NCBI RefSeq assembly: GCF_002891535.1
Contig: NZ_PDZR01000030.1
Span: 1 to 43,153 of the forward strand
DNA from: Methylocella silvestris
GTDB taxonomy: Bacteria > Pseudomonadota > Alphaproteobacteria > Rhizobiales > Beijerinckiaceae
Direction of reading: 5' to 3'
Length of the DNA: 43,153 nucleotides
Below the pieces are notes generated by a model that was not told where the DNA came from, searched no databases, and worked only from the letters and a program-made list of their open reading frames with translations. The first letter of the stretch is position 1, and each line of letters starts with the position of its first letter. Shown piece by piece: positions 31,098 to 42,339 of the stretch. The position numbers and the translations under genes are program-made.

Positions 31098-31187
31098 GGA
31101 AGGGTGGCCGAGTGGTTTAAGGCAGCGGTCTTGAAAACCGCCGTGGGCGCAAGTCCACCGTGGGTTCGAATCCCACCCCTTCCGCCA
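31098..31187 (+). tRNA. tRNA-Ser (anticodon TGA)
   Basis: The acceptor stem GGAAGGG pairs with CCCTTCC, with discriminator G and encoded CCA (31185-31187). The anticodon loop CTTGAAA gives TGA. The long variable arm (GTGGGCGCAAGTCCAC) is that of a class II serine tRNA, and the T-arm reads GGTTCGAATCC. An integrase gene starts 87 bases beyond the 3' end, so this tRNA is the likely attachment site of the island to its right. Confidence 0.97.
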
Positions 31188-31273: not shown

Positions 31274-33040
31274 TTGCCGCGCTACATGCACACGCCTTAT
31301 CGTCATCCGAAGACCAAAATCTTTTGGGTCAAGGGCTCGGTTCCCGCCGAAGTTCGCGACCTCCCCAGCTATAGCGGCACGAAGCAATTCAACCGCTCCC
31401 TCGGCACGCGAAACCCCAAGGAAGTCCAAGCGGCCCTCGCCAAGGTCACGCTGGCGTTGCGGGCGGAGTGGGACGCGCAACTGGCTCCGCCGTCTCCCGC
31501 TCCAATCACCCTATCCGAGCACCAAATAAGGGCGCTGGCGGGTCGATGGCACGACCAAAGGCTGCGGGAGGAGGAGCGGCAAGACCAGCATCAGGAAAGC
31601 CTCCTGGCGGTCTTAAGCACGCTTGAGGGGGAGGACGCGCCCGACGCACTGTTCACGAGAAGCGGACTCGTGGCAGATGCCGTGGACAGGTTGCTGAAGG
31701 ACGAACCCGTCCCTTGCGATGAGGCAAGCCGCGCGAGGCTTCACGGCGAGTTGCTGCGGCAGCACAAGTCTCTTTATCGGCTCTTATTGCGGCGCGCGAA
31801 GGGGGATCATACGGCGGAGGTCGAACGCTTCCCGGAATGGAAAACCGCCGCAACGCCGGGGACGCTTGCTACCGCCACCGTTCCTCTCCCTCCGCAGCCC
31901 GCCGCCGCCAGCCAAACGACCAGCCAGGGTTTGACCGTTGGGGAGTTGATGGACCGCTACGACGCGGACCCGAAGCGGCTGGGCATCCGGGAAAGGTCAA
32001 AGGCGGGCTATGCGGTTATCTATCGCGTCCTGAAGGAACTTCTCGGCGCGGACAAGCCTGTCAAGGCGATTACGCGAGAGGACTGCCGCCAAGTTCGTGA
32101 CGTGCTCTTGAAGCTGCCGCCGAATTACACGAAGCGCTTCCCAAGGATGACAGCCAAAGAGGCGGCCGAGGAAGCGTCGCGCAAGGGCGTTGCGCCCCTC
32201 GCCCCCGGCACCGTGGACGGCTACTTGGAGAATCTTGCGGCGGTGTTCAACTGGGCGGTGGCGGAGGAGTATATGGAGCGCAACCCCGCCAAGGGCCTCG
32301 GGACAACCGGGAAGGTCAAGGCGAAGGACAAGCGGCTGCCGTTCACGCTGGACCAGCTTCAGGCGATCTTCTCTGCGCCGCTCTATACCGGATGCAGGGA
32401 CGATGAAGCGAACTACGCCGCGCCCGGCCCCAATCATCCCCGCCGCGCCCGCTTTTGGGTGCCGCTTCTCTCGCTCTGGACGGGGATGCGGCTCAATGAA
32501 TGCTGCCAGCTTCTTACCTCGGACGTGCGGGCGCTCGACGGCGTGCCGTGCCTCTTCATTTCGGAGGAGGTGGCAGACGGGCCTCGCGAAGCCGGGAGGG
32601 GAAAGCCAGCGCCGGTGAAGCGCGTCAAGACGGAGGCCGGAGAACGATTCGTGCCAATCCACCCCGAACTGATTCGGATCGGCTTCTTGAAATTCGCGGA
32701 GAAGAAGAGGGCGGCGCGGGCGGAGCGGCTGTTCCCCGAGTTGTCCGCGAGCGGCGAGGGCTATTTCTCCGACGCCTTCTCGAAGTGGTTTTCCCGGTTT
32801 CTGGCAAGCCGCAACGCGAAGACGAGCCGCACGAGTTTCCATAGCTTCCGCCACTGCTACAGGGACGCCATGACGGAAGCCCGCCTTGGCCGCAACTCTG
32901 TCCTGCTCTTGGGCGGCTGGGAGGGAGGCAAGACGGATGACGGCTACGGCGGCAAGGTGCGCGCTTCGTTCTTGCTTGAGGAGATTTCCAAGGTCGCCTA
33001 TCCGGGCCTCGATCTGGGGCACCTAAGGGGTGAGGCTTAA
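31274..33040 (+). CDS. Tyrosine site-specific recombinase (island integrase)
   Basis: The start is TTG at 31274 (GGGGG seven bases upstream) or ATG at 31286. The 588-aa product has an N-terminal DUF6538-like segment (IFWVKGSVPAEVRDL), a core-binding SAM-like domain (about 225-330) and a C-terminal catalytic domain with Arg406 in TGMRLNE, His523-x-x-Arg526 in HSFRHC, Trp549 in GGWEGG and the probable nucleophile Tyr558 in DDGYGG. It is longer than typical integrases because of its helical N-terminal part. Its position right after tRNA-Ser shows that it drives integration of the downstream DNA into that tRNA. Confidence 0.92.
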   Translation: MPRYMHTPYRHPKTKIFWVKGSVPAEVRDLPSYSGTKQFNRSLGTRNPKEVQAALAKVTLALRAEWDAQLAPPSPAPITLSEHQIRALAGRWHDQRLREEERQDQHQESLLAVLSTLEGEDAPDALFTRSGLVADAVDRLLKDEPVPCDEASRARLHGELLRQHKSLYRLLLRRAKGDHTAEVERFPEWKTAATPGTLATATVPLPPQPAAASQTTSQGLTVGELMDRYDADPKRLGIRERSKAGYAVIYRVLKELLGADKPVKAITREDCRQVRDVLLKLPPNYTKRFPRMTAKEAAEEASRKGVAPLAPGTVDGYLENLAAVFNWAVAEEYMERNPAKGLGTTGKVKAKDKRLPFTLDQLQAIFSAPLYTGCRDDEANYAAPGPNHPRRARFWVPLLSLWTGMRLNECCQLLTSDVRALDGVPCLFISEEVADGPREAGRGKPAPVKRVKTEAGERFVPIHPELIRIGFLKFAEKKRAARAERLFPELSASGEGYFSDAFSKWFSRFLASRNAKTSRTSFHSFRHCYRDAMTEARLGRNSVLLLGGWEGGKTDDGYGGKVRASFLLEEISKVAYPGLDLGHLRGEA

Positions 33041-33044
33041 GACC

Positions 33045-34541
33045 TTATCTCTGGTGCGCGAGTACGCGCTCGCCAATGATCGCCTCAAGAAATTCTTCAG
33101 GCAACACACGCTCGAAAACGCCGATGGCTGTCCGTATGAGTACTAAGTAGTGGTCCCAGTCGCCGCCCTCAACGCGACGCCATAAACTGGGTAAATACCG
33201 CACCACAATCGAGAGCGCATATAAGACTACCAGTGCGAGCGTTCGGTATTCAGATGCGCCAGCAAGCACGGGAAGGATTAGAGTTCCGGAAGGCAGGAAT
33301 GCACTGCGATGAAGCGGCAGCGCTCCGTCCCAGTATTCATGTCCATCGTGATCGACGCGTACGCGAAAGGAGCGGCCGCCACTCTCGGTGGCAATTTCGG
33401 TAAGCTCTGCAACCGGCCAACCGGCGGCTTCGAGACGCGATCCTGAGACGCGCCCCGACACATCAACTAGATCGACGTAGGTACTCCCAACGCGTTCTGT
33501 GCGCCCAAATAATACAGACGTGCTGTTTGCCTCGACGTCGTAGTGGGGCGAAACCCATGAAGGCGCGCTGTCGAATACTTCTAGGTACAGGTCACCCAAC
33601 TCCGGGATCGCGGACAACAGTTCGCCCAGAGACGCGTGGGTGTGGGTAGGCAGATCGTGTAGGTCGCTCTGATTTTTAGCTTTCTTGGTCGGATAGGCGC
33701 TGATATTATGACCAAGGAATGCTGCCCAGCGGGGATAAAATCCCGAAGCGAGCACGCCTACGCTAAGTCCACCAAAGTCATGCGTAATAGGAGGTACTGT
33801 GTAAAGCCCATGACCAAACTTCGTGAAACCTTCGACGTCGTCTAAGTTGGCCGATCCGTCCGGCGAAGCCAACATATCGGCGGATGCAAGCGCGAGAGCA
33901 CCGTAGTAGAGGCTGAGAATTCTTCGGCTCAGGCTTTCGTTAGTTCCTGACCGAAAATAATCCGCTCCATTTCGGATCGCGAAGGCGAGCCCTTCTGCCT
34001 TCTTCGACAACGGGGTGGGAGTGCGGGGCACACCTCCTTCCGCCATGCGGCGCTCTATCAGCTTTTCCGCTAACCGAACACTAGCGAACTGCTCTAGCCG
34101 TGCCCAAATCGCGTCTAGCGGGCTTTCTGCCGTGATTTGCCTTATTGCCCGCGCCCGATATGGCGGTATGGACGAGTCTGCCGTGGGCGCAAGGGCCTTA
34201 TTCCACTCAATGAGTGTGCCTGGAAACTGATCGATGGAAGCAACGGGCGTCGAGATTCCGTAGGCATAACTTCCGACATTATTCAAGGCACCATTCGTGA
34301 AAATGTGGTCAACGCTTAAATCGAGTGCGCGGTAGTGTCGGTTCTCCATAGCCGAGGTGTAAAGGACAGCAATCGAGCGCGAATAGCCATTCTTCTGAGC
34401 GGTCACAACGATGTATTCACCTTCTTCACTTGCGGGAGCGGTGCAAGTCTCCCAGCCATGGATTCGCAATGGCTGTATGAGATGCCTATCGACTGCCTCG
34501 TGGAGAATCCTCATGCGCATCTCAAAACCAGCGTCCGCCAT
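33045..34541 (-). CDS. YaaC-like protein with an extra N-terminal domain
   Basis: The 498-aa product has two parts. Residues 1 to about 120 (ILHEAVDRHLIQPLRIHGWE.., SIAVLYTSA, ALDLSVDHIFTNGA) form an alpha/beta domain I cannot name; the layout resembles small nuclease-like domains but no catalytic motif is certain. Residues 140-498 resemble Bacillus YaaC: a helical LYYGALALASADML segment, GHGLYTV, and a C-terminal block LVVLYALSIVVRYLPSLWRR. YaaC function is unknown. The gene is visibly richer in A+T than the core genome, faces the integrase (4 bp between stops) and stands alone, which fits a transferred cargo gene, possibly for defence. That role is inference. Confidence 0.5.
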   Translation of the reverse strand: MADAGFEMRMRILHEAVDRHLIQPLRIHGWETCTAPASEEGEYIVVTAQKNGYSRSIAVLYTSAMENRHYRALDLSVDHIFTNGALNNVGSYAYGISTPVASIDQFPGTLIEWNKALAPTADSSIPPYRARAIRQITAESPLDAIWARLEQFASVRLAEKLIERRMAEGGVPRTPTPLSKKAEGLAFAIRNGADYFRSGTNESLSRRILSLYYGALALASADMLASPDGSANLDDVEGFTKFGHGLYTVPPITHDFGGLSVGVLASGFYPRWAAFLGHNISAYPTKKAKNQSDLHDLPTHTHASLGELLSAIPELGDLYLEVFDSAPSWVSPHYDVEANSTSVLFGRTERVGSTYVDLVDVSGRVSGSRLEAAGWPVAELTEIATESGGRSFRVRVDHDGHEYWDGALPLHRSAFLPSGTLILPVLAGASEYRTLALVVLYALSIVVRYLPSLWRRVEGGDWDHYLVLIRTAIGVFERVLPEEFLEAIIGERVLAHQR

Positions 34542-34945: not shown

Positions 34946-36352
34946 ATGAGGTGGCCGAGGTATTTGTCTGCATTCGAATTAGACGCGATGTTCCGGGCTC
35001 TTCCCGACCAGACCACCATCGCTCCGGTCACAGTCAGCGGGTTTACGCAGTATAAGACGCACGTGTCGGACTTGCCCGCGAGCGAAAGCGCCAAAATCGA
35101 CGCCGTCGCTGACGCGATCGTGACGAGCTATCGCGCGGGACGCCACCCGATCATCGGCGTTTTGATCGTCGGCCATGCGGACCAGGACCTTTCACGTGGC
35201 GTGGCGTTCGAGCAGGAAATCAGCATCGAGCGGGCGGAATGCGTGCGTGAAGCGTTGCTCAGTTCTTTGCAAAGCCGCACCGGTGCGGGGTTGATGCCGC
35301 TCCAGGTCAAAGAGGCTGCGGTGCGTACGGCGGGGGTCGGGGCGACTCAGCGGGTGGTGACGCATCCGATCAATGAGGCGCAGCGCGCGCAAAACCGCAG
35401 AGTGGTGTTGTATCTCGCCGAGTCGATTACGCCGGTCGTACCGCTCGATGGATTCTTTCCGGTGCCCCCGCAAAAGGTCGAAGACGAGGAAGGAGCCGCA
35501 CCTGCCTCCCCACGGCCGCAGCGCTCGCCTCTCTTGCTCGCATTTTCCATACCGATCTTTGGCTCCCCGGCGCTTGCCGGAGCCGCCGTGTTCGCGTCTG
35601 GACAGCCAAGAAGGCCGAGCATCAAACATGACCACGGCTTCCTGGATGACGGCAAAGGCAACATCGATCCATCGAAGCGACAATCCCCGACCGATACGGA
35701 CCGCGCGCGAAAGGACGTGTGGAAGTTCCTCCTTGGGCTCACAATCCAGAACAAGCCCGAATTGAAGGACGCCACCGATGCCTACAAGCATTTCCTGGTG
35801 GACAACAACGGCACCCAGCTTACCGTTCGCTACGAAGGCTTCGTAAAGGACGACGCCAACGGCAAAACGGTGTTAAAATCGGCGATAGACGATACGCGCA
35901 CGGGCGTTCTCGATATCTTCGACAGCCAGTTCCCGAAGCCCTTGACATCAGCGGCGCGGACGTTGTTGCAGGTGACAAGCTCCGCAGTGACGGTGGGGCG
36001 AGCGACGCCGGACTTTCGCTATCCATATCCGGCCGATGAGAACTGGCAGAAAGCAATCGGCGGCCACGCGCTGTGGATATCGGCCGACGCGATCATAGAC
36101 AGCGCGCCCGGCAAGCTCCGCACCGTGGCCATTACGATGACCCTGCACGCCGAGGACATGTACAACTTCAACCCGGACGGCGCGGACATCGCGACGAACA
36201 CCAGAGACGCCGAGAATGGGCGCTTCGAAATTGTCGGGCTTGGGACCGAGTTTCTCCAAATCGGCACCGCCCAACGCACCATCACGTTCACCATCCCGAA
36301 TGCGAAACAGGCCGACAATCGGGTGGTGCCAGCGGATCAGAAAGTCACGTAA
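34946..36352 (+). CDS. OmpA-domain protein with an effector-like C-terminal domain
   Basis: The 468-aa product lacks a signal peptide. Residues 70-157 match the OmpA/MotB peptidoglycan-binding pattern: GHADQD, then ISIERAECVREAL and NEAQRAQNRRVVLYL. A Pro-rich linker and a hydrophobic stretch (195-218) lead to a C-terminal domain (about 225-468) with IGGHALW (371-377), DMYNFNP (404-410), DIATNTRDAENGRFE and a final beta region. I have seen the YNFNP..DIAT..NGRF pattern in uncharacterised proteins that look like secreted or bacteriocin-type effectors, and it loosely recalls colicin M-like active sites. No immunity gene is evident beside it. The fusion of a wall-binding domain to such a domain without a leader suggests delivery by a specialised system or phage particle; this is inference. 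Confidence 0.5.
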   Translation: MRWPRYLSAFELDAMFRALPDQTTIAPVTVSGFTQYKTHVSDLPASESAKIDAVADAIVTSYRAGRHPIIGVLIVGHADQDLSRGVAFEQEISIERAECVREALLSSLQSRTGAGLMPLQVKEAAVRTAGVGATQRVVTHPINEAQRAQNRRVVLYLAESITPVVPLDGFFPVPPQKVEDEEGAAPASPRPQRSPLLLAFSIPIFGSPALAGAAVFASGQPRRPSIKHDHGFLDDGKGNIDPSKRQSPTDTDRARKDVWKFLLGLTIQNKPELKDATDAYKHFLVDNNGTQLTVRYEGFVKDDANGKTVLKSAIDDTRTGVLDIFDSQFPKPLTSAARTLLQVTSSAVTVGRATPDFRYPYPADENWQKAIGGHALWISADAIIDSAPGKLRTVAITMTLHAEDMYNFNPDGADIATNTRDAENGRFEIVGLGTEFLQIGTAQRTITFTIPNAKQADNRVVPADQKVT

Positions 36353-36764: not shown

Positions 36765-38204
36765 TCACTTAACGCCTATTTTGATCCTGACGCCCGTGAC
36801 CTTCAAAGCCGCCGCAGCGAACGCTTCTTGAACTGCCCCGGACTTCGATTCGGCGCAAAGCAGCGCATCGTGGAGGGGCAGCGCGACGACGCCTTGCCCG
36901 GTCAGCTCCTTCATGGCGTCCAGAATGATTTCGCTCTCGGTGAACATGAAGCCGTAGCCAGCATTCGTTCCAAGGGCGATGAACGGAGCGAGGTCCGGCA
37001 AGGTTTCCAGCACGGCCGCGCGGAGGGTCGCCACGGTCAGGCCGTGAGGCATCGCCGTTTCGATCTCCCCCGGCCAACGCCGCCCGTTTAATCCAAAGAA
37101 CAGGGCGTTGACGGCTTTCTTGATCGCGCCGCGTTGGACGCTGAAGCCTTTCGCTGCGAGGAGTTCGGCGGTTTGGTCGTAGGGGTCGGCGTCGTCGAGT
37201 TGACGCCCCGCGCTTGCATAAGCCAGCCGCGTGAAAAGGGCGTTGGCGTCCACCTCCGCGATGCACTCGCCGTCGATCCGTAGGCTTGCCGCGCGGCGTT
37301 CCTTGTCGAGGTTGCTCCAGAACGCCCCAAACAGCCGTCCGCCCATATGAGGCACGCCACGGCGCGGGAGAGGGCAGCCTGAAGGCAAGGAGAAGTAGCG
37401 GCGAAGGCGTCTGTCCGACACGCGCACGTGGCCGCGCCCGTCATCCTCGAAGGCAAGGTCCGCCCCAGCAAGGACGGCATTCATCTCGCGCAACTCCTCC
37501 CGCCATTTGTTCGTCTCGGGGGTGTCAATATAATCGAGGCGTTCGCGAGATACGGCCTTCTGCGCCGCGCCGTTCACCCAGTCGAGGGCTGAGGCGTTGC
37601 GGGACAGGATAATCATCTCCTCTCTGTCATCGCGTCCGAGGTCCGCGTTTGAGATGCCTTTGAGGCGGGCTTCGTTTGCGAAGTTGGACGTTGGCGTGAT
37701 GCGGGAGGCCGTCCCTCTCCACTCGCCATTTGTCGGCAAGCGCCCCAAACCCAGCCTCAGGAACTCTCCCTCGGCAACGTCAAGGACCGCCTTCAGCGTC
37801 TTCGGCCCAAAATGCGGCGGGCTGTAGCGGCTCCCGCTCCAGTTGTTCCACCCGAGGATGATAAGAAGGCCGCATTCCCCCGCGCCGTCCCGCACAAGGT
37901 TGCAAACGAGCGCCTCCACGGCCGACATGAAGCCCGCCCTTTCCTTGGCCGAGCGGCGGTTTCCTCGGGGCCGCCCGTTGGCTTCGATGATCGCCGCGAT
38001 GTCGTCTACAAGCTGCCGCAGTGCAGGACCAACGGCAACAAGCCAAGGATCGAACCAGAGCGATTCTGTAGGCCCCTGCGGACTCTTCCGAGCGCCTTCG
38101 TGGGCCGCTAGGCTATCCTCCATGCTCTCCGACGAGACGGCGGCCAAGGGACTCGCCAGGGCTTCGTGAGGCAGTCCCGCTGCGTCAATATCTGTGGATG
38201 ACAA
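36765..38204 (-). CDS. Protein with family-A polymerase palm-like motifs (candidate replication protein)
   Basis: The 479-aa product belongs to a recurring mobile-element family that I recognise by its pattern but not by a name. After an N-terminal region without landmarks, GGRLFGAFWSNL (288-299) leads into ECIAEVDANALFTRLAYASAG, with Asp319 placed like motif A of Pol I. Then DPYD, a motif B-like GAIKKAVNALFFG (Lys362/363, Asn366), FTESEIILDAM and a motif C-like VVALPLHDALL (His445-Asp446) follow. Order and spacing mimic the palm of family-A DNA polymerases, without fingers or exonuclease domains. Its start overlaps the upstream zinc-finger-like gene by 20 bp. Polymerase activity is inference; a non-catalytic replication role is equally possible. 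Confidence 0.5.
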   Translation of the reverse strand: MSSTDIDAAGLPHEALASPLAAVSSESMEDSLAAHEGARKSPQGPTESLWFDPWLVAVGPALRQLVDDIAAIIEANGRPRGNRRSAKERAGFMSAVEALVCNLVRDGAGECGLLIILGWNNWSGSRYSPPHFGPKTLKAVLDVAEGEFLRLGLGRLPTNGEWRGTASRITPTSNFANEARLKGISNADLGRDDREEMIILSRNASALDWVNGAAQKAVSRERLDYIDTPETNKWREELREMNAVLAGADLAFEDDGRGHVRVSDRRLRRYFSLPSGCPLPRRGVPHMGGRLFGAFWSNLDKERRAASLRIDGECIAEVDANALFTRLAYASAGRQLDDADPYDQTAELLAAKGFSVQRGAIKKAVNALFFGLNGRRWPGEIETAMPHGLTVATLRAAVLETLPDLAPFIALGTNAGYGFMFTESEIILDAMKELTGQGVVALPLHDALLCAESKSGAVQEAFAAAALKVTGVRIKIGVK

Positions 38205-39126
38205 GTTTCTCTCCCGCCGGTGTTTCTTTTACCTCAACAGACTTCGGCTTGCGCAACGGATTGGGCGGCCCGTCGTCAACCTTGATCACAGTTGCATGTC
38301 GGCCCTGGATGACGAATTCGGGTGGGTAGGGGCGCTCCTTCCAGCTTGTCTTCGGCTTCCCCGTCTTGGTCGTCATGGCCTCCAGCGCGCGCTTCATCTC
38401 AAACACCCCGGAAAGGTGATGTTGCGTGACGAGTTCGGAGGCTTCCTCAAGCGCTTCCCCGAGCCGCCGCAAGACGAGCCCGTGGGACGGCTGAAAGGCT
38501 TCGATCCTGAAAGGTTTGTCGGGGGCCGAGGACCGCTCCCAGCGCTTCGTGATGCCGCCGCCGAGCGTATTGAGCACCTTGCCCATTTGCACGCGCGGAT
38601 ACTCCCGGAACTTGTCGGGGCCGCTTGTATGGGGCGGGTCGGCTTCATCGGCAAAGGCGGCTTCGACTCCCAAGGATGCCCCAAGCAACACCTTCGGGTC
38701 GATCTTCCGCCTCTTGATCCGAGCGAACACGGCGCGGGCCTTTACGGCGGGGGAGAGCGTTCGGATGTCATGGGCTTCGACAACCGGCCCCGCACTATCG
38801 AGAAGCCCTTCGATCCGCGCCAAGGCAGTCTTGACGAAAAGCTCGGAGGCGTTCTTGACGATCCATTCGAAGGCGGCGCGGCGGTAAGGGGTGAGGTGTC
38901 GTGCGGTATAACTACCGATTGTAGTATGGCCGTGGCGGCGGAGGTGATGGCGATGGCTGCGGCAGTATTTCCCCATGCCTTCCGTTGTGGCGGCCAGCGG
39001 GGGACGCTTGCAGCCGAGCACCCAGCACGTCTCATTGGCATAGGCGGGGTCGATGGTGGCGGCCTTGCGGATGGCGTCGGCGCGGCGTTTGAGGGCTTTT
39101 GGCGCTGTCGGAGGCGTGCGCCTCAA
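38185..39126 (-). CDS. Hypothetical protein with an N-terminal Cys/His cluster
   Basis: The start is TTG at 39126, placed by GAGAGGAGATCGCA just upstream. The 313-aa basic protein has a likely zinc site at residues 34-66 (CWVLGCKRPP.., then YCRSHRHHLRRHGH), followed by a helical middle region and a Lys-rich C-terminus. It could bind nucleic acid. It overlaps the palm-motif gene, so the two are coupled and probably work together. I do not recognise the family beyond the phage/ICE-like Cys/His arrangement. Confidence 0.55.
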   Translation of the reverse strand: MRRTPPTAPKALKRRADAIRKAATIDPAYANETCWVLGCKRPPLAATTEGMGKYCRSHRHHLRRHGHTTIGSYTARHLTPYRRAAFEWIVKNASELFVKTALARIEGLLDSAGPVVEAHDIRTLSPAVKARAVFARIKRRKIDPKVLLGASLGVEAAFADEADPPHTSGPDKFREYPRVQMGKVLNTLGGGITKRWERSSAPDKPFRIEAFQPSHGLVLRRLGEALEEASELVTQHHLSGVFEMKRALEAMTTKTGKPKTSWKERPYPPEFVIQGRHATVIKVDDGPPNPLRKPKSVEVKETPAGEKLVIHRY

Positions 39127-39365
39127 TGCGATCTCCTCTCGTTAATCCACACAAATATTAGGTATAATTACCGGCTTGGGCTGCCCTGTCCCTGCCTCAC
39201 AAAAACGCGGTATCGCGGACAAATTGGTCGTGAAGGAGCGCGGGAGGGCCGACAAGCGGGGTATGGGTAGCCCCAGGGCAAGAAGCGGGGGAGTTTGATG
39301 TCCCGCCGACTCCCTGTCCCTGAGGCCTCCGTCTAGCAGCCTACAAGAGGGTCAGCCGGGGTTCC

Positions 39366-39917
39366 TTAGGCGGCGACGGGAGGAGCGCCCAACGCATTAA
39401 GCCGAGCATCCGTGGCCGCGTCCTTGGCGCATTGGCGGAACCGGTTGTCCGCTGTGTTGCACGCTTTGCTCCACACGATTTTGTCATAGCCGCCGAAGCG
39501 CACAGTCTCCGCAGCTAAATCCAGCCAAAGGTCGAAATTGGAGGCGGGTTTGCTTGATGCGCTCTTTGCACCCGAACGGCCGCCGCTTGCTATGAATGAC
39601 GCAAAGTCAGTGACGTTATTGAGGAACCAACTCTCCTCAACGACAATCCGCAAGCGTGTTAAGCCGCGATCGGAGGCCAGCCGTAAAGCCATGATGGTAG
39701 CCAAAATGGCCGCCCTTGGGCCTGTAACATCCGCATCCGTATTGCATTCGCATGGTGGCTGGAACGCGATGGCGTTCTTCCTGCGGTCCACGAACAGCAC
39801 GCTTAGTGCCGCTACGGCGGGCGCTTTTGTCGTTGAATGAGCAATGTAAGCAATTTCTTCGTAGGAGTCGTTCGCTGCGGTTAACGTCGAAGTGTCCAAG
39901 TGCATATTTCCTTTCAT
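39366..39917 (-). CDS. Divergent RNase H-like fold protein
   Basis: The product has 183 aa from ATG 39917; ATG at 39905 is an alternative. The layout follows RNase HI: strands around VAALSVLFVDRRKNAIAF, a helix TGPRAAILATIMALRLASDRG in the place of the catalytic-Glu helix, strand-helix LRIVVEESWFLNNVTDF in the place of the DSxxxxN motif, and an end KIVWSKACNTADNRFRQCAKDAA in the place of the final N..AD..A helix. The canonical Glu is replaced by Ala and the second Asp by Glu, so catalysis is doubtful. It lies 240 bp upstream of the zinc-finger/palm-motif pair in the same direction. Confidence 0.4.
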   Translation of the reverse strand: MKGNMHLDTSTLTAANDSYEEIAYIAHSTTKAPAVAALSVLFVDRRKNAIAFQPPCECNTDADVTGPRAAILATIMALRLASDRGLTRLRIVVEESWFLNNVTDFASFIASGGRSGAKSASSKPASNFDLWLDLAAETVRFGGYDKIVWSKACNTADNRFRQCAKDAATDARLNALGAPPVAA

Positions 39918-39942
39918 TGTTTCTGTTGATGGAAGTGGGCTC

Positions 39943-40314
39943 TCAGCGCCCGCTTTGCTTCTTGTTGGGGAGGTGATCCACCATCGCGTTGATGGCCTGT
40001 AAGATACCCATGGCGTTCCGCAATGGGATGAGCCCTATGGCGCGCTTCGCCTCGGATCGGGTCCCCGACCACCCGTCCCTGATGCTCTCGATGCCCGTCT
40101 GGAGGGCGTCAAAGATCGCGCCCGCCATGTCCACCACGGGGATGCTGGTGATCGCGTTGAGGGTTAGCCCCGACGATCTGGCGGCTTGCCCGAAGCCTTG
40201 CCCGTCCTCATCCTTAGGGGGGAGCCCTAAGCGCTGCCCCGTGGTTAGAAAGGGTCCTATGACCTCGGGAGTTATGCCCGCCATGCCCACGCGGGACCAC
40301 ACGTTGAGGGCCAT
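39943..40314 (-). CDS. Small hypothetical protein, possibly phage-derived
   Basis: The 123-aa product has two weakly hydrophobic helices (ITSIPVVDMAGAIFDALQTG and AIGLIPLRNAMGILQAINAM) and ends LPNKKQSGR. The ending resembles the C-terminal ends of large internal virion proteins of podovirus-like phages, so it may be the remnant of such a gene. It lies 26 bp upstream of the RNase H-like gene, same strand. Confidence in any function is low. Confidence 0.4.
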   Translation of the reverse strand: MALNVWSRVGMAGITPEVIGPFLTTGQRLGLPPKDEDGQGFGQAARSSGLTLNAITSIPVVDMAGAIFDALQTGIESIRDGWSGTRSEAKRAIGLIPLRNAMGILQAINAMVDHLPNKKQSGR

Positions 40315-40738: not shown

Positions 40739-40921
40739 TCAGCTTGGGAAAGAACCCAAGGACCGCTTTGCGCCATCGCGCCAACGGGGCCGCTTGCGCG
40801 CCTCCCGTGCCGCTTGCGCGGCTTGTTCGCCTCTAGGGCCGCTTGCGCGGCTTGGCCCCCGGTTATGTCCGGCTCCGGGAACCGCTACGCCCCCGGTATG
40901 GGCTAGAAGCCACAAACGCAA
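40739..40921 (-). CDS. Small protein with GHNRGP motif
   Basis: The 60-codon frame starts at TTG 40921 and contains VPGAGHNRGPSRASG, then an Ala/Arg/Glu-rich helix. GHNRGP near the N-terminus recurs in small prophage-encoded proteins of Alphaproteobacteria, whose role is unknown. The start is poorly supported, so the frame may be a remnant. Confidence 0.3.
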   Translation of the reverse strand: MRLWLLAHTGGVAVPGAGHNRGPSRASGPRGEQAAQAAREARKRPRWRDGAKRSLGSFPS

Positions 40922-41257
40922 ATAGCCGTCAAGCTCAAAATCGAACTTGCCGGCACAACTTCCCCATTTGCACCGCTTCTATCCCATAAAAAGCGCCGGT
41001 GCAAGGCGCAATACTACTAAACATTCTGTCGCAGTCAGTAAATTCAATTGGTTACGAGGCGGCGCGTGCCACCCGCGTCCCAATAAACGTCGGAAATGGC
41101 AGCAACTTCAATTAGTTGCTCATTGCAAATCGTGCCAACGGACTGTCGATCGACGCGACCAACCGGTAGCGTGCGCGGCGGCACATTCACCGGAACGTCC
41201 GCTGATAGGGTCCCACAAACCGGCACCAGGGGATCGAATTATTTTCGGAGGCGAGCA

Positions 41258-41770
41258 ATGCAATTTGAACAATTCGACAGCGGCGACGCGGGTCCGACAG
41301 CGTCGTCGAAGGATCACGCTAGCAAGTTTCCCAACTGCGGCAATTATCTCAAGAATTCAATGAACCCACAGAAGCTTAAGAAGGATAAGCCCAAAGTATG
41401 GGCCGCTTTCGTTAAATGGTGCGGCAACGAGGTATGGGCCACCACGGCGTGCACGTGGGGCAAGGGGCCGATGGTTCAGATCAACAGCGCCAAGGTTCGC
41501 CGCGCCAATGGCCGCACCACGGGCGACGACGCCGAGCATGTGATGTGCTTCATTCATGGCAAGGTCGCCAACAAATATGAACAGGGCAACGTGGCTATCG
41601 TTTGGGAATCGACGGTCCTGCACGAACTCGTTCATTGGACGCGCTGGAAGCAGAAGCTTGTCGATCCGAAGGACGACAGCGGTACGGAGATCGAAGTGGG
41701 CAAGGCCTTCGAGAACGAGGCCTACGGAGGCGACGTGTCCTTGCAGACACCCGACGCGCCCAAGCCCTAA
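41258..41770 (+). CDS. HExxH zinc metallopeptidase, effector-like
   Basis: ATG at 41258 follows a GGAGG Shine-Dalgarno; the longer open frame upstream lacks one. The 170-aa product has no signal peptide. Zinc ligands are His122 and His126 in VLHELVHW with catalytic Glu123, and the third ligand is probably Glu152 in the motif KAFENEAYGGD. The HELVHW...GxxFExExYG arrangement is that of small zincin domains found as C-terminal toxins or stand-alone effectors of contractile systems. No immunity gene is visible next to it. It converges with the resolvase, the two stop codons overlapping (41767-41770). Confidence 0.6.
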   Translation: MQFEQFDSGDAGPTASSKDHASKFPNCGNYLKNSMNPQKLKKDKPKVWAAFVKWCGNEVWATTACTWGKGPMVQINSAKVRRANGRTTGDDAEHVMCFIHGKVANKYEQGNVAIVWESTVLHELVHWTRWKQKLVDPKDDSGTEIEVGKAFENEAYGGDVSLQTPDAPKP

Positions 41771-42339
41771 CCGAACACCGACGGGCGACCTGAGCCGCGC
41801 TTCCCAAGCGCCCGATACACGCTCATCCGACTTATGTTCATGGCCTTCGCGATCTCGCTTGGTCCAAGGCCTTTGGCTTGGTGTTCACGCACCTTCTCCG
41901 CGTCGATGCTCGCAGGACGCCCGTTGTACTTCCCTTCCGCCTTGGCCTTGGAGATGCCCTCAAGCTGGCGCTCCTTGCGAAGGTTCGTCTCGAATTCCGC
42001 GAACACCCCGAGCATGTCGAGGAAGGCTTTCCCAGCGGCCGTTCCGGTATCAATTGGCTGTTCGGTCGCCTTCAACGTCACCCCCTTGGCTTTCAACTCG
42101 CGCACGATGTCCTGCAAGTCGCCAATGGAGCGCGCGAGGCGATCAACGCGGGTGACCACTAACTCATCGCCCTTGCGCAGGAAGCCCATGAGTCGCTTCA
42201 ACTCCGCGCGGCCCTCCAGCTTGGTCCCGCTGACTTTCTCCTGCCGCACGTCCTCGCACCCAGCCGCCTCAAGGGCATGGAGTTGGATGCTCGTATCCTG
42301 GTCGGTCGTGGAGACGCGGGCATATCCGAACTTCGTCAT
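41767..42339 (-). CDS. Serine recombinase, resolvase/invertase family
   Basis: The 190-aa product starts MTKFGYARVSTTDQD with catalytic Ser10 and contains the family motifs RKGDELVVTRVDRLARS, DTGTAAGKAFLDMLGVFAEFE and a C-terminal helix-turn-helix (GLGPSEIAKAMNISRMSVYRAL). These are all intact. Such enzymes resolve cointegrates or invert DNA; Tn3-type resolvases act at a res site next to their own gene. The region directly upstream (42357-42470) has the repeats expected of such a site. No transposase of Tn3 type is visible within the window. Confidence 0.93.
   Translation of the reverse strand: MTKFGYARVSTTDQDTSIQLHALEAAGCEDVRQEKVSGTKLEGRAELKRLMGFLRKGDELVVTRVDRLARSIGDLQDIVRELKAKGVTLKATEQPIDTGTAAGKAFLDMLGVFAEFETNLRKERQLEGISKAKAEGKYNGRPASIDAEKVREHQAKGLGPSEIAKAMNISRMSVYRALGKRGSGRPSVFG

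Follow-up and report, generated by a model that had tools for sequence, protein, structure and literature searches.

Among described mobile elements, pipolins come closest to the locus considered here: in those of Escherichia coli, only the polymerase gene and the attachment sites are common and the rest varies (PMC7385651). A second point of comparison is the PICMI, a type of small phage satellite that integrates at particular sites of the chromosome and in some cases carries defence genes; PICMI were sought by integrase, AlpA, primase and Fis (PMC10803314). Here we analysed a stretch of 43,153 nucleotides (nt) from Methylocella silvestris (NZ_PDZR01000030.1; hereafter the window), which is contig C23 of a 79-contig genome of 4.28 Mb, and within it a leftward gene block at 36765..40314. 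This block is probably the core that replicates and maintains an element which integrates at tRNA genes and copies itself with a minimal polymerase of family-A type. The DNA seems to carry part of a small mobile element of a type not yet described, which brings along a polymerase akin to DNA polymerase I (Pol I). Pipolins come nearest to it in concept, and among the open-access titles and abstract openings listed none described such an element, which is weak evidence of novelty.

The four leftward open reading frames (ORFs) reported in the initial annotation, the first two overlapping, are all present. They encode a stand-alone family-A-like polymerase of 479 amino acids (36765..38204, minus strand), a zinc-cluster partner protein of 313 amino acids (38185..39126, minus strand), whose frame overlaps the former by 20 nt, a 183-amino-acid protein (39366..39917, minus strand) and a 123-amino-acid ORF (39943..40314, minus strand). 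Judged by homology, the 479- and 313-amino-acid ORFs are coding, and their TTG starts are each preceded by a purine-rich stretch; the 183- and 123-amino-acid ORFs are likely coding as well. Third-position G+C is 0.75, 0.75, 0.63 and 0.82, in the order given.

No Pfam family is matched by the 479-amino-acid protein. Alignment A1 comprises 14 proteins, that of the window and those of 13 of 18 related loci found by a whole-protein search; its members match five families, and the Pol I family PF00476 is not one of these. Sequence searches of the PDB with the protein returned nothing convincing; all 14 A1 proteins match PHROG 4756, a family of unknown function. The AlphaFold2 model of the protein, made from 78 sequences, has a predicted local distance difference test (pLDDT) score of 87.4 and a predicted template modelling (TM) score of 0.86, with residues 1–43 not confident. 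Searched against the PDB with Foldseek, the model gave 57 matches at E ≤ 0.001 (best E 2.6e-6), and all 50 matches listed are family-A polymerases, namely those of Taq, Bst, the Plasmodium apicoplast, Aquifex, Mycobacterium and phage G20c, and polymerase theta. In a viral structure library, eleven proteins match the model over nearly its full length (E 2.9e-20 to 7.3e-13, TM-scores 0.45–0.70), one of which carries the name DNA polymerase. The model thus resembles the family-A polymerase palm that had been predicted from motifs, and a fold unrelated to polymerases was not seen.

Conservation among relatives was assessed in two locus sets, that of the whole-protein search and one of 86 loci from pattern scans, which are not independent because several loci are identical contigs (e.g., L047 and L029). 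The patterns for the larger set include residues 289–296 or 438–447 of the 479-amino-acid protein, and invariance at these residues is therefore partly due to selection; Asp319, Arg358, Lys362 and Glu423 lie outside the patterns. Alignment A3 holds 78 proteins, that of the window and those of 77 of the 86 pattern-scan loci, leaving out the duplicates L127, L128 and L130, the broken frames of L070 and L105, and L061, L087, L101 and L123, which were not entered. A 17-sequence alignment holds the window and 16 whole-protein-search loci, leaving out the fragmentary L044 and L046. Gene maps cover 83 distinct loci, the three duplicates being dropped, with neighbours counted within 6 kb of the polymerase gene; overlap-filtered maps place the zinc-protein gene in 51 loci and RNase H in 10, whereas plain searches give 53 and 11. 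Single-protein scans of the genome-contig and viral-contig sets were unproductive.

Asp319, Arg358, Lys362, Glu423, Ser424, His445 and Asp446 occur without exception in the 78 aligned proteins, and Asp319 and His445-Asp446 are kept in 17/17 sequences of the smaller alignment, window included. By computation, the protein has a family-A polymerase fold with invariant catalytic motifs; polymerase activity presumably goes with them. The palm motifs A (Asp319), B (Lys362) and C (His445-Asp446) lie where they had been read in the sequence, and Asp319 and Asp446, whose conservation had been singled out for checking, vary in none of the 78. Motif B as first given stands in part: Lys362 and Asn366 occupy the positions named, but Asn366 is Asn in only 41 of the 78 proteins. 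The description of a palm without fingers has to be given up, because an O-helix equivalent with Arg358 and Lys362 is present and invariant, so that the fingers are reduced and not missing. The spacing R358-x3-K362-x7-F370 is that of R-x3-K-x3-F-x3-YG in 19/19 Pol I sequences (this genome and 18 relatives), in which motif A reads DYSQIE in 18 listed. The O-helix Tyr of Pol I is Phe in 58 of 78 proteins and Tyr in one. In Pol I, a Glu five residues after the motif A Asp (Asp+5) excludes ribonucleotides; it occurs in 0/78 proteins here, the position being held instead by F (30), G (13), A (11), N (6) and others. No exonuclease family was matched in the 479-amino-acid protein or the A1 members. 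Residues 60–171 of the model run helix-helix-helix-strand-strand, barring one three-residue strand, and this order suggests a winged helix in the N-terminal part.

A frequent close partner of the polymerase is the 313-amino-acid protein, whose conserved residues are C34, C39, C55 and H58, followed by R64-H65-G66; the Cys/His cluster noted at the outset proved at least 90% conserved in 48 proteins. Its AlphaFold2 model (pLDDT 82.5) is a helical body without a recognised fold: a fold search gave no PDB match at E ≤ 0.001, Pfam none above cut-off, and tblastn in phage records no match. Relatives are encoded close to the polymerase gene in 12 of the 18 whole-protein-search loci and in 55 of the 86 pattern-scan loci. 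Across 53 distinct loci the zinc-protein gene is upstream of the polymerase gene in 38 and downstream in 15, the gap or overlap being ≤ 200 nt in 47; the two frames, drawn from the first start codon, overlap in 16.

Recombinases likewise accompany the polymerase gene. In the 83 distinct loci, a serine resolvase was found near it in 57, the zinc protein in 51 and a tyrosine integrase of the window type in 44, and the chance expectation for an integrase neighbour is about 5% (16 integrases in the window's own 4.28 Mb genome). The suggestion that the gene set recurs in integrase-bearing islands was thus borne out, with zinc protein, resolvase and integrase repeatedly near the polymerase gene. In the window, a tyrosine integrase probably belonging to the element (31274..33040, plus strand; Phage_int_SAM_5 and DUF6538) matches the profile of polymerase-locus integrases at E 1e-99 in a set of five proteins, and a serine resolvase, also probably of the element (41767..42339, minus strand; Pfam Resolvase E 1.1e-40), has 63 relatives, down to E 1.1e-78, only ORFs of polymerase-bearing loci being compared.

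The 83 loci contain 53 tRNA genes, and for 28 of these the 3' part is exactly repeated (at least 16 nt) within the locus. All 28 repeated ends form pairs that enclose the polymerase gene, in 27 loci, spanning 2.7–15.2 kb; such enclosure is partly expected, though not always, because the loci are centred on the gene. The smallest delimited locus, L055 (2.7 kb), may be mis-bounded. Integrase, resolvase, zinc protein and polymerase occur together in no delimited locus shorter than L054 (7.06 kb), which further holds an RNase H-like protein and otherwise ORFs of ≤ 121 amino acids. Relatives are therefore, by computation, integrated at tRNA genes. In the window, a tRNA-Ser(TGA) gene found with ARAGORN (31098..31187, plus strand) is the probable integration site and left end. 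This fits the comparison with the relative genome G207, whose homology to the window breaks off at 31187, precisely on the final base of tRNA-Ser; the integrase ORF follows after a gap of 86 nt. The element in the window may be whole. As a separate observation, the contig end (43040–43153) resembles, on visual inspection, the terminus of an insertion sequence, which would explain a missing right end.

What lies between the repeats of the delimited relatives was scanned in 136 of 188 listed ORFs from 26 of the 27 loci, and the families listed are the best 25 of 69 (Pfam), 25 of 558 (PADLOC) and 25 of 113 (PHROG). By these computations, defence genes are among the cargo: the PADLOC families listed include PARIS, restriction-modification methylases, Septu, Gabija and OLD-type ATPases, with three or four members each, and the Pfam families listed include Pycsar/CBASS-type effector domains and restriction subunits. 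No capsid, terminase or tail family is among those listed from the three sources. AlpA and primase are absent from the Pfam families listed and from ten ORFs of five small elements, in which no replication or mobilisation family was found.

Two further proteins complete the block. RNase H-like genes occur in 11 of the 83 distinct loci, five with the catalytic acids, five without and one end-damaged. The catalytic D-E-D-D is kept in L059, L070, L074, L129 and L053, and these five catalytic RNase HI genes overlap the polymerase gene in two loci, lie within 1 kb of it in two, and in one are 2.2 kb away on the opposite strand; a further pair, in L056 and L058, may also be RNase H-like (hhalign probability 80%). 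The 183-amino-acid protein of the window is possibly RNase H-like, to judge from sequence profiles. It matches an RNase H-neighbour profile at E 5.5e-7 (in a set of five proteins) and scores 12.5 bits against the intact RNase H set, the best of 20,000 shuffles of itself reaching 9.5; as a lone query against about 9,500 ORFs, its sole hit below E 1 is an RNase H (E 0.28). Pfam RNase_H was not matched, and tblastn of the protein in phages gave no match. The initial annotation had called it a degenerate RNase H-like protein. That reading retains a weak profile match and the absence of the catalytic set, the D-E-D-D not being kept (alignment A5), but against the degenerate RNase H set the protein came second, below one shuffle; it is plausible because RNase HI genes lie near the polymerase in five other loci. 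The 123-amino-acid ORF had been taken for the remnant of a virion protein. It matches PHROG 342 at E 9.2e-6 with its C-terminal end only, possibly as a fragment of a phage internal virion protein; beyond this one profile match the claim found no support, as tblastn in 50,697 phage records gave no match and no relative was seen among the ORFs of the other loci.

The polymerase family was found in 18 of 199 genomes of the order and, at the level of the phylum, in 24 of 398 sampled genomes, of which 23 belong to the same class (own genome counted in each case), and in 3 of 72,556 plasmid records. In a FastTree phylogeny of the polymerases, those of Nitrospira bins cluster with sequences from Rhodobacterales (support 0.92), and Parvibaculum is joined by Cupriavidus, Nevskia and a Planctomycetota bin (support 0.88); over all non-alphaproteobacterial contigs placed among alphaproteobacterial polymerases (Nitrospira, beta- and gammaproteobacterial, Planctomycetota), supports range from 0.59 to 0.92. 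This grouping is consistent with transfer, and some cases may be binning errors. Relatives are also carried by large Vibrio and Aeromonas phages; 60 phage records were matched by the window protein and 163 by ORF100 of phage ICP1 (L134:7555-9222), an additional, unannotated family-A-like polymerase gene. The annotated ICP1 DNA polymerase is ORF58, near RNase H and primase/helicase. Among the 45 of the 163 records that are listed, nine are ICP1-named, and the best match of these to ORF100 is only 27.9% identical over 43% of the length, so that isolates of ICP1 differ strongly in the version of ORF100 they carry.

Taken together, we hypothesize that the tyrosine integrase would excise the element, which it inserts at the 3' end of tRNA genes, and that the 479-amino-acid polymerase would copy the excised circle, its N-terminal part possibly recognising the element's origin, given its winged-helix order of helices and strands. 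The zinc protein would act as the polymerase's usual partner in origin binding, priming or loading, the serine resolvase would separate multimers, and an active RNase H, where present, would remove or process RNA primers. The element would then re-integrate at a tRNA gene, the remaining genes being exchangeable cargo. That the element is the template of its own polymerase, and that zinc protein, resolvase and RNase H have these roles, are parts of this hypothesis. A joint role of the four genes in replication, as first proposed, is the leading interpretation because of the gene content of the delimited relatives. In a more specific version, these self-replicating integrative elements would be to family A what pipolins are to family B: their minimal family-A replicase would prime itself or use an element-specific RNA, and they would be common in Alphaproteobacteria and carry anti-phage defence genes. 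The missing Glu gate leaves room for self-priming, and the RNase H beside the polymerase in some elements recalls, as a proposal, ColE1, which pairs RNase H and Pol I. We advance this version tentatively and regard it as possible, with the odds against it.

Several observations weigh against a tRNA-integrating element replicated by this polymerase. The TM-scores of the model to solved polymerases are only 0.21–0.31 of the query (50 listed), and the superposition therefore covers part of the protein only; a profile-profile alignment (hhalign) to Pol I brings motif A into register over 34 columns, and its E of 0.038 and probability of 1.4% are non-significant. Within 6 kb, no resolvase was detected in 26 of the 83 loci, no zinc protein in 32 and no integrase in 39, some of these cases arising from contig ends, and 25 of the 53 tRNA genes have no repeat in their locus. 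The right end of the window element was not found: the tRNA end does not recur elsewhere in the genome, and the flank of G207 gave no match. An iteron origin is not recurrent, being seen in one of 27 stretches and not in the window. In ICP1, the relative may not be the main replicase, because ORF100 is a second polymerase-like gene beside ORF58. Finally, PHROG 16 (DNA helicase) was matched by three of the 136 cargo proteins and reverse transcriptase families by two; these may belong to restriction or defence systems.

Alternatively, the 479-amino-acid protein could be a primase or a single-subunit RNA polymerase that supplies primers or transcribes the element, whose replication would fall to the host replisome. 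The ribonucleotide-excluding Glu of Pol I is absent in 78/78 proteins and the O-helix Tyr is replaced by Phe in 58, Tyr remaining in one, as such an enzyme might have it, and the motif spacing is common to family-A DNA polymerases and T7-like RNA polymerases. However, the 50 PDB matches listed are all DNA polymerases, with no RNA polymerase, and some of the viral proteins among the structural matches bear the name DNA polymerase. We therefore consider this alternative unlikely, if well worth bearing in mind. Less likely still is that the element carries the polymerase as part of a module for defence or repair and not as its replicase. Palm polymerases are used by some defence systems, and the defence genes in the cargo of relatives would fit, as would the relatives in large Vibrio and Aeromonas phages, with an extra gene in ICP1. 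Against it stands that integrase and resolvase accompany the polymerase while other genes vary, although this association is partly due to the choice of query, since the loci were picked by the polymerase.

A further conceivable reading is that a prophage or satellite has decayed in the window and that its polymerase is left over from a phage replication module. The resemblance of the 123-amino-acid ORF to the end of a phage internal virion protein and the phage relatives of the polymerase would be in line with this; yet the catalytic residues are intact, and capsid, terminase and tail genes are missing among the cargo families listed, so that we regard this explanation as very improbable. The preferred reading remains that of a replication and maintenance core of an integrating element.

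Further genes between the left end and the resolvase of the window are probable cargo of the element: a YaaC-like protein (33045-34541, minus strand; Pfam YaaC E 3e-15), an OmpA-like protein (34946-36352, plus strand; Pfam OmpA E 4.6e-5, below cut-off) and a protein with a Tox-MPTase3 metallopeptidase domain (41096..41770, plus strand; Pfam E 1.5e-46). The last is a stand-alone domain without a relative among the ORFs of the other loci. Between the 123-amino-acid ORF and this gene, at 40769-40846, lie imperfect repeats around GCCGCTTGCGC, in a G+C-rich segment where they may be due to chance.

Among the 27 stretches of the origin search, the sole iteron-like case is L054:7942-8541, where GGGTAGGGGCA occurs five times close to the beginning of the zinc-protein gene. 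In the gap that follows the resolvase gene towards the zinc-protein or polymerase gene, the DNA is conserved at 79–91% in two groups of loci (L078, L083 and L090; L047 and L048), and these segments are possible origins or regulatory RNAs. The same search brought to light a candidate new structured RNA of about 135–240 nt, a conserved non-coding segment in several elements (e.g., L107:8235-8372, L056:7883-8020, L077:12083-12217 and L073:12866-12999, these four on the minus strand, besides others, none in the window). A covariance model built from eight segments finds these and four more among 92 sources (E ≤ 5.2e-16), and it does not match the window; the RNA lies near a zinc-protein or polymerase gene in 12 loci. 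In the 199 genomes, the model has 12 matches in nine genomes and several kinds of locus. In an alignment of 24 sequences, pairing holds in 95.3% of cells and both sides have changed in 32 of the 41 pairs, compared with 15.9 in shuffles; this alignment is fitted to the model and so favours it. Rfam gave no match, and by eye the RNA often precedes a gene for a small membrane- or regulator-like protein. We considered the RNA as a part of the element core and rejected it, as it is absent from the window and occurs without the polymerase; for the latter reason it appears to be an independent passenger. The nine RNA-bearing and the 18 polymerase-bearing genomes share none, which speaks for independence and not for exclusion, because less than one shared genome is expected by chance.

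If our reading is correct, a protein family of unknown function that is present in 18/199 genomes of the order and 24/398 of the phylum would acquire a testable function, and integrative elements with their own replicase would have arisen with more than one polymerase family. The family would also provide a small, naturally occurring polymerase of Pol I type in which no exonuclease domain is recognised and the Glu gate is absent, together with a handle for locating tRNA-borne islands that move defence genes between bacteria.

In relation to known systems, the 479-amino-acid protein shares with the Pol I family (PF00476) the palm fold, the motif A Asp, the O-helix R-x3-K and the His-Asp of motif C. 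It differs in having no Pfam hit, no recognised exonuclease, no Glu at Asp+5, a differing N-terminal part, mostly Phe for the O-helix Tyr, and A, G, C or S instead of E after the HD of motif C. The phage proteins of PHROG 4756, to which ICP1 ORF100 would belong by its tblastn match, are of the same family, and similar predicted folds occur among viral proteins; the two phage members examined lie in large phage genomes with mostly hypothetical neighbours and no integrase in the stretches seen. With PICMI the elements have in common a small size, site-specific integration and, in some, defence genes; PICMI were sought by a different gene set, whereas the present elements are marked by polymerase, zinc protein and resolvase. 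Pipolins, like the present elements, combine integration at tRNA genes, recombinases and a polymerase of their own; a recombinase with direct repeats at a tRNA gene, as in pipolins, is seen in the relatives, the window showing the left end only. Whereas pipolins encode a primer-independent family-B polymerase, that of the present elements is of family-A type, as the 50 PDB matches listed indicate, and it is joined by a recurring zinc-cluster partner and a serine resolvase.

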